Of a stretch of DNA of 64,000 nt, positions 19,746 through 23,526 are shown in pieces. This stretch comes from Desulfosoma sp. (GTDB lineage Bacteria; Desulfobacterota; Syntrophobacteria; Syntrophobacterales; DSM-9756): contig JBBFKY010000002.1 of the NCBI GenBank assembly GCA_037481875.1, positions 62,001 through 126,000 of the forward strand. The letters run 5' to 3'. The notes below the pieces were generated by a model that was not told the DNA's origin, ran no database searches, and saw nothing but the letters and a program-made list of their open reading frames with translations. Within the stretch, counting starts at the first letter, position 1, and every line of letters starts with the position of its first letter. The position numbers and the translations under genes are program-made.

Positions 19746-20951
19746 CTAAGTCTCGGGCTCTTGGATCACACGGAGTGCCTCGCGAAGGGTTGTTTCCGAA
19801 ACATTCGTGTGTCGTTCCACACGGCCCACATCTCGAGGCACGATCCAGGCAAGCCCGGCGGCACCCTTTTTCTTGTCATGACGGATGTGGTGCAGAAGCG
19901 CCTCGGGGTCTTGAGCGAGGGGTGTTGTCAACGGCAGTTGGTACGCCTTGAGGATTCGATTCAGACGTTGGGCCAGATTCGGGTTCGTCACCCCCATAAG
20001 GATGCCCAACTGAACCGCCACCTTCATTCCCAGAGCCACCGCAGACCCGTGTGGCAGCGTGTAGCCGCTCAAAGCTTCCAAGCCATGCCCTGTGGTGTGT
20101 CCCAGGTTCAGGAACTGGCGCAACCCGAAGTCTCTTTCATCAGCCGAAACATAACGCGCCTTGATGTTCAGGCTTTGAAACACGAGATATTGTGTCATCT
20201 GTTGGGGCAGAGGATAGGAAACGCCTTGAGCGCTTTCTGTCTGGGCAAAGGATTCCAAAGTCTCCAGAAGCCCGCTGTCTTCCAAAAGAGCGTATTTGAT
20301 AACTTCCGCCATCCCGTTTCGCCATTCTTCCTCGGGCAGGGTTTCGAGAAAAGCCGAATCCACCAAAATGCCCTGAGGCTGATGAAAAGTGCCCAGAAGA
20401 TTTTTTCCTTCGTCAAGATCTACGCCGGTTTTGCCCCCCAGGCAGCTGTCCACTTGAGCCAGCAGCGTCGTGGGCACCTGCGCCACAGGAACACCTCGCA
20501 TAAAGATGGATGCCAGGAAACCGATCACATCCCCCGTTACGCCGCCTCCAAGAGCGACAAAAACGCTTTCACGGTCAGCTCCTCGAGCCAAGGCCGTTCG
20601 GGCCAGATCCTCTACGGTAGCAAGGCGTTTCCTGTCTTCTCGAGCATCCCACGGAATCCAGGCTTCGGCGAAGTTATCGGCACCCAGAGCTTCTCCCCAC
20701 AAAGAAGCCACGTTCCGGTCAATGAAAAGATAGGGGCGTCTTTGAGGAAAGTGCTGTTGAAGCCATAAACTAAGAGAACGAGCGCCGTGGAGCTTAAAGG
20801 TTACATGAAACGGCTGAAGAGCCTCCTCTGTTTCGGTCACGCTTTTGGAACCGCTCGGCTTATGGGTGTTCACTCGGTGCTCGAAAAAGCTACCTTCACT
20901 TTCCAAGCATCTCGAGCAGGGATTTTGTCCAGAGGGCATGATGTCAGGCAT
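19746..20951 (-). CDS. aroB: 3-dehydroquinate synthase
   Basis: Second step of the shikimate pathway: converts DAHP to 3-dehydroquinate using NAD and a divalent metal. The core motifs are GGGVTGDVIGFLASIFMRGV, QVPTTLLAQVDSCLGGKTGV, GKNLLGTFHQP and LNLGHTTGHGLEAL, the last carrying metal-binding His residues. The start at 20951 has GGAGAAGG just upstream and overlaps the end of tyrA by 8 bases, implying coupled translation. It yields 401 residues, roughly 40 more than usual; the extra N-terminal part has no recognisable domain, so a later start is possible. It is the last gene of aroF-tyrA-aroB and should share control by the attenuator upstream of aroF. Confidence 0.93.
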   Translation of the reverse strand: MPDIMPSGQNPCSRCLESEGSFFEHRVNTHKPSGSKSVTETEEALQPFHVTFKLHGARSLSLWLQQHFPQRRPYLFIDRNVASLWGEALGADNFAEAWIPWDAREDRKRLATVEDLARTALARGADRESVFVALGGGVTGDVIGFLASIFMRGVPVAQVPTTLLAQVDSCLGGKTGVDLDEGKNLLGTFHQPQGILVDSAFLETLPEEEWRNGMAEVIKYALLEDSGLLETLESFAQTESAQGVSYPLPQQMTQYLVFQSLNIKARYVSADERDFGLRQFLNLGHTTGHGLEALSGYTLPHGSAVALGMKVAVQLGILMGVTNPNLAQRLNRILKAYQLPLTTPLAQDPEALLHHIRHDKKKGAAGLAWIVPRDVGRVERHTNVSETTLREALRVIQEPET

Positions 20952-21924
20952 AGACCTTCTCTCCGTGTAAAACCTCACGCGCCGCAGAGCCCTTCCCATC
21001 AGGCGCAGTGTGGCTTTCGGACTGATGGGTGAACAAGACCTCTTGAGTTCCATGATTGTTGGCATTGTGGTGCCAGGTCAGCAATCGGTTGGTTTCGTGC
21101 AAGGCTTGTGCACAAAACTCTCCGAAATGGGCTCGAGTCTGCTCAAAGGCTTGCAAAAAGGCATGCCAGCGATCGTTTTCCACATCGTCCATGGTTTCAA
21201 AAAACACCTGGCGCAGAACATTCAGGGCCTCGTTCTTATACGGGTTTTCCATGGCGATGGCGGCATAAAGGGCCGGGTCTTGGGCAAAGAGTCGGCCGAT
21301 AAGGTCCAGTTCCAGACGATAAATGGGGCTGGTGAAGCGAAGGCTTTCAACGGGGTCGATACCCATTTCTCTTAGACAGTGCCCCAGCACGACCGTGGTC
21401 ATGTGAGGAATAAGCTGGATCACGGTCATCATGCGGTCATGGTCTTCGGCTGAACAGACGTGTATTTTAAGTCCTGCATGCTCGAGGACGCCCATAAGCC
21501 AGTTCCATGGTTCCCTGGTCACGCGGTCCGGACACACGATCATGGTTTGGCCTACAAAGTCCGAAACATACGGACCGTACATGGGATGCAGCCCCACGTA
21601 CCATGCGCTGCACCCCTGCATGGCTTTTTTGGGTGGCACCTTGAGGGAACAGATGTCCAGGACCAGCTGTCCTTCCTGAAAGTGTGGGGCCAGGTTGCTC
21701 AGAATGTTTGAAGCCTTGTGCAGAGGGACGCTTACAAGGACCACGTGGGATCTTGCAATGACGTCTTCATTGCTCAGATCGGTCCCCACATCGGAAATGG
21801 AGACCGACGCGCCAAGGTTTGTAAAAAAGCGGTGAAAAAGCCTACCCATGGCACCCAGTCCCCCGATGATGCCGATGTGGGGAAGTTTCGGCCAGCCTTT
21901 AAAGTCCGAGGGATTTTCCGTCAT
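20944..21924 (-). CDS. tyrA: Prephenate dehydrogenase (TyrA family)
   Basis: NAD(P)-dependent oxidative decarboxylation of prephenate (or arogenate) on the route to tyrosine. The 326-residue protein has the nucleotide-binding motif HIGIIGGLGAMGRLF, then VLVSVPLHKASNIL, LVLDICSLKVPPKKAM, VGLHPMYGP with the conserved His, and DHDRMMTVIQLIPHMTT, all typical of TyrA. No fused chorismate mutase or ACT domain is visible. It sits 92 bases after aroF and overlaps aroB by 8 bases. Placing tyrA with the first two shikimate-pathway enzymes in one operon fits control by aromatic amino acids. Whether prephenate or arogenate is the preferred substrate cannot be told. Confidence 0.92.
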   Translation of the reverse strand: MTENPSDFKGWPKLPHIGIIGGLGAMGRLFHRFFTNLGASVSISDVGTDLSNEDVIARSHVVLVSVPLHKASNILSNLAPHFQEGQLVLDICSLKVPPKKAMQGCSAWYVGLHPMYGPYVSDFVGQTMIVCPDRVTREPWNWLMGVLEHAGLKIHVCSAEDHDRMMTVIQLIPHMTTVVLGHCLREMGIDPVESLRFTSPIYRLELDLIGRLFAQDPALYAAIAMENPYKNEALNVLRQVFFETMDDVENDRWHAFLQAFEQTRAHFGEFCAQALHETNRLLTWHHNANNHGTQEVLFTHQSESHTAPDGKGSAAREVLHGEKVYA

Positions 21925-22016: not shown

Positions 22017-23090
22017 TCAGGAGGTGGCTTGCAGAGTATGAGGCTGTCCCTTGGAACGGGCCGTTGCGGTTCGCAAAAGGGTTCGTCCCACAGCGTTGGC
22101 CACAGGTTCCAGCCGATCCAGGAGTTCCTGCATGGCCTCAGGGGTCAAGGATTGGGCTCCGTCGCTCTTGGCTTCGTGCGGTCGCACGTGGACTTCCAAC
22201 ATGAGTCCGTCAGCACCGGCGGCGACAGCCGCACAGGCCATGGCGGGTATCAGGTCCGTTCGCCCCAGGGCATGGCTGGGATCCACAATGACGGGCAGAT
22301 GGGTCAGTTTTTTCAGCAAAGGCACAGCACTCAGGTCCAAGGTGTTTCGCGTTTCCGTTTCAAAGGTGCGAATGCCTCGCTCGCAGAGAATCACCTTCTC
22401 ATTGCCGTGGCTCACGATATATTCCGCGGACATGAGAAATTCCTTGATGGTCGCTGCCATTCCCCTTTTAAGAATCACGGGCTTGTCCACCTGGCCCACT
22501 TCCGTCAGGAGTTTGAAGTTTTGCATGTTTCGTGTTCCGATTTGCAAAACGTCCGCATATTTGTAGACCAAGAGAAGTTCTCGAGCGTCCATGACCTCGG
22601 TGACCACAGGCATGCCGGTACGGCTTCGCACATCGCTCAAGAATTTCAGAGCCAGTTCCCCGAGACCTTGAAAGCTGTAAGGCGATGTGCGCGGCTTAAA
22701 AGCGCCTCCTCGCAGCATGGGAATGCCCATGGCATGCAAAGCGTCGGCGATTTCATCGAGAACTTCACGACCTTCCACGGCACATGGCCCGGCGATGATG
22801 GGAATGGCCTGTCCTCCCAGTTCTACATGTTCGCCGATACGTATTTTGGTGTTTTCTTCTTTGAATTCTCGACTTACCAACTTGTAGGGCTGCAAAATGG
22901 GATGGGCCGCTTCCACACCGGGAAAGCTCGTAAAAGGAATCTCCTGAATCAAATCCCTTTCGCCGATGATTCCCACAATGGTGCGTCGTTCTCCTCGAGA
23001 CAAATGCGTGCGCAGCCCCATTTTTTCGACGCGCGCAATGAGTTTGCGAAGATCTTCGTCTGTGTGTTCTGGTTTCATGACAACAATCAT
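22017..23090 (-). CDS. aroF: 3-deoxy-7-phosphoheptulonate (DAHP) synthase, type I-beta
   Basis: First committed step of aromatic biosynthesis: condenses phosphoenolpyruvate and erythrose-4-phosphate. The 357-residue protein has an N-terminal regulatory segment of about 65 residues (MIVVMKPEHTDEDLRKLIAR), the form usual for feedback-regulated I-beta enzymes, followed by the KDO8P/DAHP-type TIM barrel: IIAGPCAVEGREVLDEI, LRGGAFKPRTSPYSFQG, DVLQIGTRNMQNF, PVILKRGMAATIKEF, VILCERGIRTFE, PVIVDPSHALGR and MLEVHVRP. It is the first gene of aroF-tyrA-aroB, 196 bases after the leader-peptide stop, and the intervening RNA folds into the switch at 23180-23309. Confidence 0.96.
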   Translation of the reverse strand: MIVVMKPEHTDEDLRKLIARVEKMGLRTHLSRGERRTIVGIIGERDLIQEIPFTSFPGVEAAHPILQPYKLVSREFKEENTKIRIGEHVELGGQAIPIIAGPCAVEGREVLDEIADALHAMGIPMLRGGAFKPRTSPYSFQGLGELALKFLSDVRSRTGMPVVTEVMDARELLLVYKYADVLQIGTRNMQNFKLLTEVGQVDKPVILKRGMAATIKEFLMSAEYIVSHGNEKVILCERGIRTFETETRNTLDLSAVPLLKKLTHLPVIVDPSHALGRTDLIPAMACAAVAAGADGLMLEVHVRPHEAKSDGAQSLTPEAMQELLDRLEPVANAVGRTLLRTATARSKGQPHTLQATS

Positions 23091-23181
23091 GGCGGGTCCT
23101 CCTTACCGGACTTGGTGGGGGAAAGCTTGGACTTTCCCGTTTCTTGGAATATCGGCGCAAACGTGCCGAGCCTTCAAAAAC

Positions 23182-23211
23182 GACAAAGGCCGTGAGCTTG
23201 TGCCCACGGCC
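23182..23211 (-). terminator. Intrinsic terminator of the aro attenuator (segment C:D)
   Basis: The RNA arms GGCCGTGGGC and GCTCACGGCC form a 10-bp stem with one G-U pair and an ACAA loop, followed by TTTGTCGTTTTTG. It lies between the leader peptide and aroF, so it must be bypassed for the operon to be expressed. Confidence 0.75.
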
Positions 23212-23285
23212 TAAGAACTCAAAAGGCCGTGGGCTTTGGGGTTAGCCCACGGCCTTGGTGCCGGCGTCCTGCGGCTTCGGACGGC

Positions 23286-23372
23286 TCAGCGCGGTGGTCG
23301 GCCAACCCCTAAGGGGCCCTGATACCACCCGTAATAAAAGTAAAAGCCCTGAACCGTTCCGTTGCGATGCAT
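23286..23372 (-). CDS. Aromatic-rich leader peptide upstream of aroF
   Basis: A 28-residue open reading frame starting with ATG at 23372, with AAGGA upstream, and ending in TGA. Codons 9-19 read GFYFYYGWYQG: two Phe, four Tyr and one Trp within eight codons, far above chance. The C-terminal end reads GRPPR before the stop. Such runs are the sensing element of amino-acid attenuators like pheL and trpL; here all three aromatic amino acids are represented, matching an operon that starts with the common DAHP synthase step. The peptide itself probably has no further function. The frame ends about 30 bases before the first hairpin. Confidence 0.82.
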   Translation of the reverse strand: MHRNGTVQGFYFYYGWYQGPLGVGRPPR

Positions 23373-23526
23373 CCTGTTTTCCTTCTTGAGAAGCTTCAAC
23401 GCCCTGCATCTTTGTGACAGGGTGATGCTTTATAGGGGACAATTCTTGAGCCTGTCAAGAGGTATGTGCGTTTTTTTTCGAAGGATGAAAAGAAAAGGAT
23501 CGACGGGCCCGAAGGAGAACTTTTGC

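Follow-up and report, generated by a model that had tools for sequence, protein, structure and literature searches.

Ribosome-mediated attenuators of the E. coli pheL-pheA and trpL-trpE type consist of a short ORF with a run of codons for the sensed amino acid, mutually exclusive antiterminator and terminator structures and a biosynthetic operon downstream, and each senses a single amino acid. The actinobacterium Corynebacterium glutamicum has an aromatic leader, aroR, directly before its DAHP synthase gene aroF; this leader contains Phe-Tyr-Phe, and ribosome-mediated attenuation has been proposed (Neshat et al. 2014, following the description in PMC11802643 and a note on the sequence in PMC4046766). 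The enterobacterial his leader operates through a relay of alternative hairpins (AB, CD and EF versus BC and DE; PMC10989985) in which a freed strand re-pairs with the next one and EF is the sole terminator. E. coli has three DAHP synthases (AroF, AroG and AroH), one for each aromatic amino acid, which are controlled by the DNA-binding repressors TyrR and TrpR (PMC5343134), and E. coli aroF is co-transcribed with tyrA.

The aroF-tyrA-aroB operon of a sulfate-reducing Desulfosoma (genome of 3.4 Mb, 99.6% complete) lies in a 64 kb stretch of the genome analysed here (the window), and its upstream region is very probably a trp/phe-type ribosome-mediated transcription attenuator, predicted from sequence and modelled folding to read charged Tyr-tRNA and Phe-tRNA. 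The locus has the components of the pheL and trpL systems but differs from them in its mixed Tyr/Phe run, its control of a DAHP synthase, its tandem terminators and the position of the antiterminator strand, which forms part of the leader ORF and is complementary to the terminator 5′ arm and loop. It resembles aroR-aroF in the position of the leader and in the proposed logic, although aroR has FYF only, whereas here there are seven aromatics in a run that is Tyr-dominated order-wide, two terminators, and an aroF-tyrA-aroB operon. As in the his leader, a freed strand may re-pair with the next, but both putative terminators (A:B and C:D) have U-rich tails and the amino acids sensed would be Tyr and Phe. 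The order of the window's genome also has three DAHP synthases divided by amino acid, as in E. coli, but its isozyme classes are each preceded by a putative attenuator leader specific for one amino acid, where E. coli uses repressors.

The mechanism is classical and already known, and it is the arrangement of isozyme-specific leaders that is seemingly unreported. The initial annotation knew of no account of this exact arrangement, and neither these leaders nor sets of isozyme-specific attenuators turned up as described in a search of the open-access literature. The window and 20 related loci have no match at gathering score among 4227 Rfam families, including the Trp, Phe and His leaders, and a permissive Rfam search returned unrelated families only, below the cut-off.

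Organization of the aroF locus and its leader ORF

The locus is organized on the minus strand in the order promoter, leader ORF, two hairpins (23256–23222 and 23212–23187) and aroF-tyrA-aroB (Table 1). The 28-codon leader with seven aromatics in eight codons, the segments L, A, B, C and D and the three genes all lie where the initial annotation had placed them. The aroF-tyrA gene order is kept in the relatives checked. A single 670-aa frame spans both tyrA and aroB in Desulfacinum infernum (L034:5119-7131), whereas the window has an overlapping pair of frames. The promoter elements (TTGAC..TATAA) are aligned and conserved in all seven members of the window's family, and TTGACA-18-TATAAA is missing from the list of a strict promoter scan because its −10 element ends in A.

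Table 1. Features of the aroF leader region and operon (window coordinates)
Feature	Coordinates	Strand	Basis or remark
Promoter: −35 TTGACA (23458-23453), 18-base spacer, −10 TATAAA (23434-23429)	23429..23458	-	Sequence, family alignment
Ribosome-binding site AAGGA of leader ORF	23380..23384	-	Sequence
Leader ORF, 28 codons + stop, MHRNGTVQGFYFYYGWYQGPLGVGRPPR	23286..23372	-	ATG at 23372; orthologous leader in 29/29 order-level relatives
Protector strand 1	23346..23355	-	Minimum-energy fold; pairs with 23292-23283, sequestering L in the untranslated leader
Putative stall codons F Y F Y Y G W Y (codons 10-17)	23322..23345	-	Sequence; permissive stall at codons 8-18 in folding scan
L, GGGGTTGGCC, putative antiterminator strand inside leader codons 22-25	23300..23309	-	Family pairing, 15-genera swap test
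Protector strand 2 (GCGCTGAGCC)	23283..23292	-	Minimum-energy fold; CTGAGC conserved in family
A, terminator 1 5′ arm and loop	23238..23256	-	
B, terminator 1 3′ arm, then TT at 23222-23221 (CCTTTT tail)	23223..23235	-	
C, terminator 2 5′ arm, identical to stem part of A	23202..23212	-	
D, terminator 2 3′ arm	23187..23197	-	
T-rich tail of terminator 2 (TTTGTCGTTTTT)	23176..23187	-	Sequence
aroF, DAHP synthase	22017..23090	-	Profile match, NF006421/TIGR01361 family, 3e-145
tyrA, prephenate dehydrogenase	20944..21924	-	Profile PF02153, sole match in genome
aroB, 3-dehydroquinate synthase	19746..21065	-	TIGR01357 above cut-off; start uncertain, frame overlaps tyrA

The order is represented by 39 genomes, of which 30 have an aroF orthologue and 29 have enough upstream DNA; further aroF homologues from the same phylum and from other phyla were used for comparison, and the compared genomes are mostly metagenome assemblies. 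All 29 orthologues are preceded by a leader ORF with 5–8 aromatics per nine codons (e.g. FYFYYGWY in the window's family, LYYYCFYYYPLGGAASGMLGY in genus g13 and RYYYYPCYHIGEAGRGMR in family f2), and an intrinsic terminator is located soon after the leader stop codon in all 29 (the terminator hairpin of L016 being added to this count by hand). Such runs are rare elsewhere. No second frame with seven aromatics in nine codons is present among all frames of the 64 kb window, dinucleotide shuffles of the window's upstream DNA gave none with six aromatics (0/3000), and a shuffle control for the order-level leaders gave 0/580 with seven and 1/580 with six. Among the aroF homologues of other taxa, 4 of 130 upstream regions contain six aromatics (L062, L066, L160 and L162). 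The ORF is short, and in this one respect it is compatible with a chance frame adjoining an ordinary terminator; the conservation in 29/29 relatives, the shuffles and the out-group controls already refute that explanation, leaving it a negligible probability.

The four aromatic-run frames outside the order may be independent attenuators. Those of L062 (Desulfurellaceae), L066 (Gemmatimonadota) and L162 (Desulfobacterota) read NFYFYTYYWF, YRYYYYY and YFWFYFYF, respectively, and L062 has the same stall profile in the folding scan described below as the order-level leaders. A broad occurrence of this attenuation across the Desulfobacterota was considered and rejected, as aroF homologues outside the order are mostly without such a leader.

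Alternative pairing of leader and terminator strands

The RNA has the potential to form the four helices initially described, with recounted lengths of 13 bp for A:B (counting A-U pairs), 11 bp for C:D (one G.U), 10 bp for L:A (one G.U) and 11 bp for B:C (perfect); weaker pairing extends L to about 23289. The terminator region is predicted to fold much more stably than its shuffled counterparts (z = −5.9). Across the relatives the terminator 5′ arm and loop are complementary to the last leader codons, though the apex sequences differ by genus: the complementary pairs are GGGGUUGGCC and GGCUAACCCC in the window, CUUCAGG and CCUGAAG in g13, GUUCAGGGUAU and GUAUCCUGAAC in g18, and GGUAUGC and GCAUACC in f2. 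When leaders are swapped among 15 genera the L:A duplex weakens from −20.3 kcal/mol (native) to −17.2 kcal/mol (p = 1e-4); the controls give p = 0.74 (upstream flank), p = 0.16 (downstream flank) and p = 0.36 (L:B). The L:A signal is weaker when the window's family is left out (p = 0.015), and for several genera a shuffled leader does at least as well as the native one in L:A energy.

The initial annotation had proposed a comparison of relatives in which conserved aromatic codons and compensatory changes would support the switch. The aromatic codons and the L:A relationship hold across the order, but compensation within the family is sparse: in the alignment of its seven sequences 98.6% of L:A cells are paired, changes in L:A are one-sided only and a single two-sided change occurs in B:C, although variation inside this family alone is too low for covariation counts to decide and the covariation evidence is that of the wider order. 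A further suggestion, that the GRPPR end of the leader peptide adds ribosome pausing, does not survive the comparison; the tail is not conserved as a peptide (GMLGY, GMHR and GMR in other genera) and is a codon shadow of the L strand.

In the folding scan the RNA ahead of the ribosome was folded with each codon in turn in the A site and the transcript ending before B. For the window, predicted L:A pairing is ~1.0 at codons 8–17, 0.9 at codon 18 and 0 at codon 21 and all later codons, and leader:A pairing is 0.01 when there is no ribosome, because the protector fold holds L. This model agrees with the proposal that a stall in codons 10–17 frees L and that a ribosome at the stop codon blocks it. 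Averaged over all relatives, A pairs with the leader at 0.65 if the ribosome stalls within the aromatic run and at 0.07 if it sits on the stop codon. The method is validated by E. coli pheL and trpL, whose profile is the same. After transcription of B, A:B is favored over L:A at equilibrium even with a stalled ribosome; equilibrium folding therefore fails as a proof of antitermination when B is present and is informative only for transcripts that stop short of B, and the switch must be kinetic. A kinetic mechanism is accepted for the trp attenuator.

Conservation, the swap test and folding together support the initial reading of an attenuator in which L:A plus B:C and A:B plus C:D are exclusive folds, controlling the first aromatic enzyme. 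When charged tRNAs are plentiful, the ribosome would reach the leader stop codon and cover L, so that A:B and C:D would form as tandem terminators and transcription would stop near 23220 or 23180. With Tyr- or Phe-tRNA uncharged, the ribosome would wait at codons 10–17 and break the protector helix, and newly made A would at once pair with the freed L; B, deprived of A, would then pair with C, terminator 2 would fail too, and RNA polymerase would enter aroF. An untranslated leader would remain locked in the protector fold and terminate.

A quite different function, with constitutive termination and a leader that works mainly as a small RNA in trans or as a translated uORF, is very unlikely. 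Leader RNAs are able to act in trans, as with Sinorhizobium rnTrpL/peTrpL (PMC7298713), and the aroF attenuator and the trp leader of the same genome have the CCGTGGG terminator core in common; but such a function leaves unexplained both why stall window and aromatic run coincide in almost every relative and the joint change of leader and terminator loop.

Tandem terminators and the putative B:C helix

The initial annotation had described a T-rich tail for C:D. A:B is also a predicted terminator: a U-rich tail follows A:B as well as C:D (CCTTTT after A:B in the window, CCTTTTTTTT in a congener, with a longer U tract in relatives), so that A:B is a terminator in its own right as well as an intermediate. 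A:B and C:D are predicted to be two near-identical terminators in tandem. The GCCGTGRGC hairpin is found at the aroF leader locus alone in the 3.4 Mb genome, so the resemblance between A and C is local; derivation from a general genomic terminator motif was rejected on the same grounds. The seven family members all have tandem terminators, as do genera g8, g12, g16 and g18; other relatives have one terminator.

The simplest reading of B:C is a relay like that of the his leader, because a second terminator without relief would silence the operon. All 12 tandem loci (seven genera) preserve 10–12 bp of complementarity between B and C, and wobble pairs are commoner in C:D (19/131) than in B:C (11/127); both observations count against a single switch in which L:A versus A:B alone matters, the second hairpin being a fail-safe from local duplication and B:C incidental. 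That single switch is possible though doubtful. In its favor, the f2 families and most of genus g13 have one terminator and no C:D, there is almost no independent covariation in B:C, the predicted stability of C:D nearly equals that of B:C, and B:C could be a by-product of the terminator duplication. However, a fail-safe without relief would always block the operon, whereas with B:C it would be relieved together with terminator 1, and the trp leader has tandem terminators too. The relay is a candidate action of B:C in vivo.

Probable sensed amino acids and DAHP synthase classes

The runs of the 29 order-level leaders contain 138 Tyr, 48 Phe and 8 Trp codons, with Tyr present in 29/29, Phe in 24/29 and Trp in 8/29. 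Judged from codon content, the primary signal is most likely Tyr and the second Phe; Tyr is placed first because of these counts and because the operon contains the genome's only prephenate dehydrogenase, a Tyr-specific step. Codon content does not fix specificity, since the FYF leader before C. glutamicum aroF is reported to respond to Phe and not to Tyr (PMC11802643). The joint sensing of Phe, Tyr and Trp favored by the initial annotation is unlikely. Codon 16 is Trp, is kept in 6/7 family members and is a position at which the folding scan permits L:A; but the run is Tyr-dominated order-wide, Trp is often lost or replaced by Cys where Tyr occurs in every run, one Trp codon among seven has weak leverage, and Trp is served by a separate attenuated DAHPS-trp operon in the same genome. 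The single Trp codon would be a minor input at most.

In that operon a second DAHP synthase heads trpE-G-D-C-F-B-A, and its leader (L173:2168-2440, G000:C7; MNFKRKVCTVGSSVCRHNARFWWCWWWCVVHGCAYGGVSL) has the run FWWCWWW followed by two tandem CCGTGGG terminators. A third class, often present in relatives, is a DAHP synthase fused to prephenate dehydratase (PDT), with leaders such as FFGFFFFFF. Trp-class leaders contain 68 Trp, 17 Phe and 2 Tyr codons (16/20 loci) and Phe-class leaders 54 Phe, 1 Tyr and 1 Trp codons (9/9 loci). Phe-run leaders (up to FFFFFF) precede DAHPS-PDT fusion genes at L197, L198 and L200–L204. One genome of the window's family (G003) has a fusion with a Phe-rich leader (L196), and no aroF orthologue of the Tyr class was found in it.

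No DAHPS-PDT fusion is present in the window's genome, where pheA is a separate gene; the searched flank of this pheA contains no convincing aromatic leader. Tyr-class leaders have on average 2.15 Phe codons in the 13 genomes without the fusion versus 0.93 in the 15 with it (Mann-Whitney p = 6e-5; phylogenetic contrasts p = 0.0013), a post hoc correlation in which fusion absence is maybe imperfect in fragmented assemblies. The Phe codons of the window's leader are probably due to the lack of a separate Phe-regulated DAHP synthase: where the Phe isozyme is absent the Tyr leader would also listen to Phe, and this would explain the mixed run.

For the order containing Desulfosoma, Desulfacinum and Syntrophobacter, we lean toward a system with one attenuator for each DAHP synthase class (Tyr for aroF-tyrA, Trp for DAHPS-trp and Phe for DAHPS-PDT), in which the Tyr leader is retuned to Phe when the Phe isozyme is missing and the two terminators of the window's family are driven by the relay. 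The three entry isozymes that repressor proteins control in E. coli appear here to be controlled by three leader peptides, and attenuation of DAHP synthase by aromatic leaders would then range far outside Corynebacterium. The locus is also a candidate case in which a single stall would switch both terminators by way of a relay, and it suggests a testable rule with which the data already agree, that the codons of a leader follow the isozyme set of its genome.
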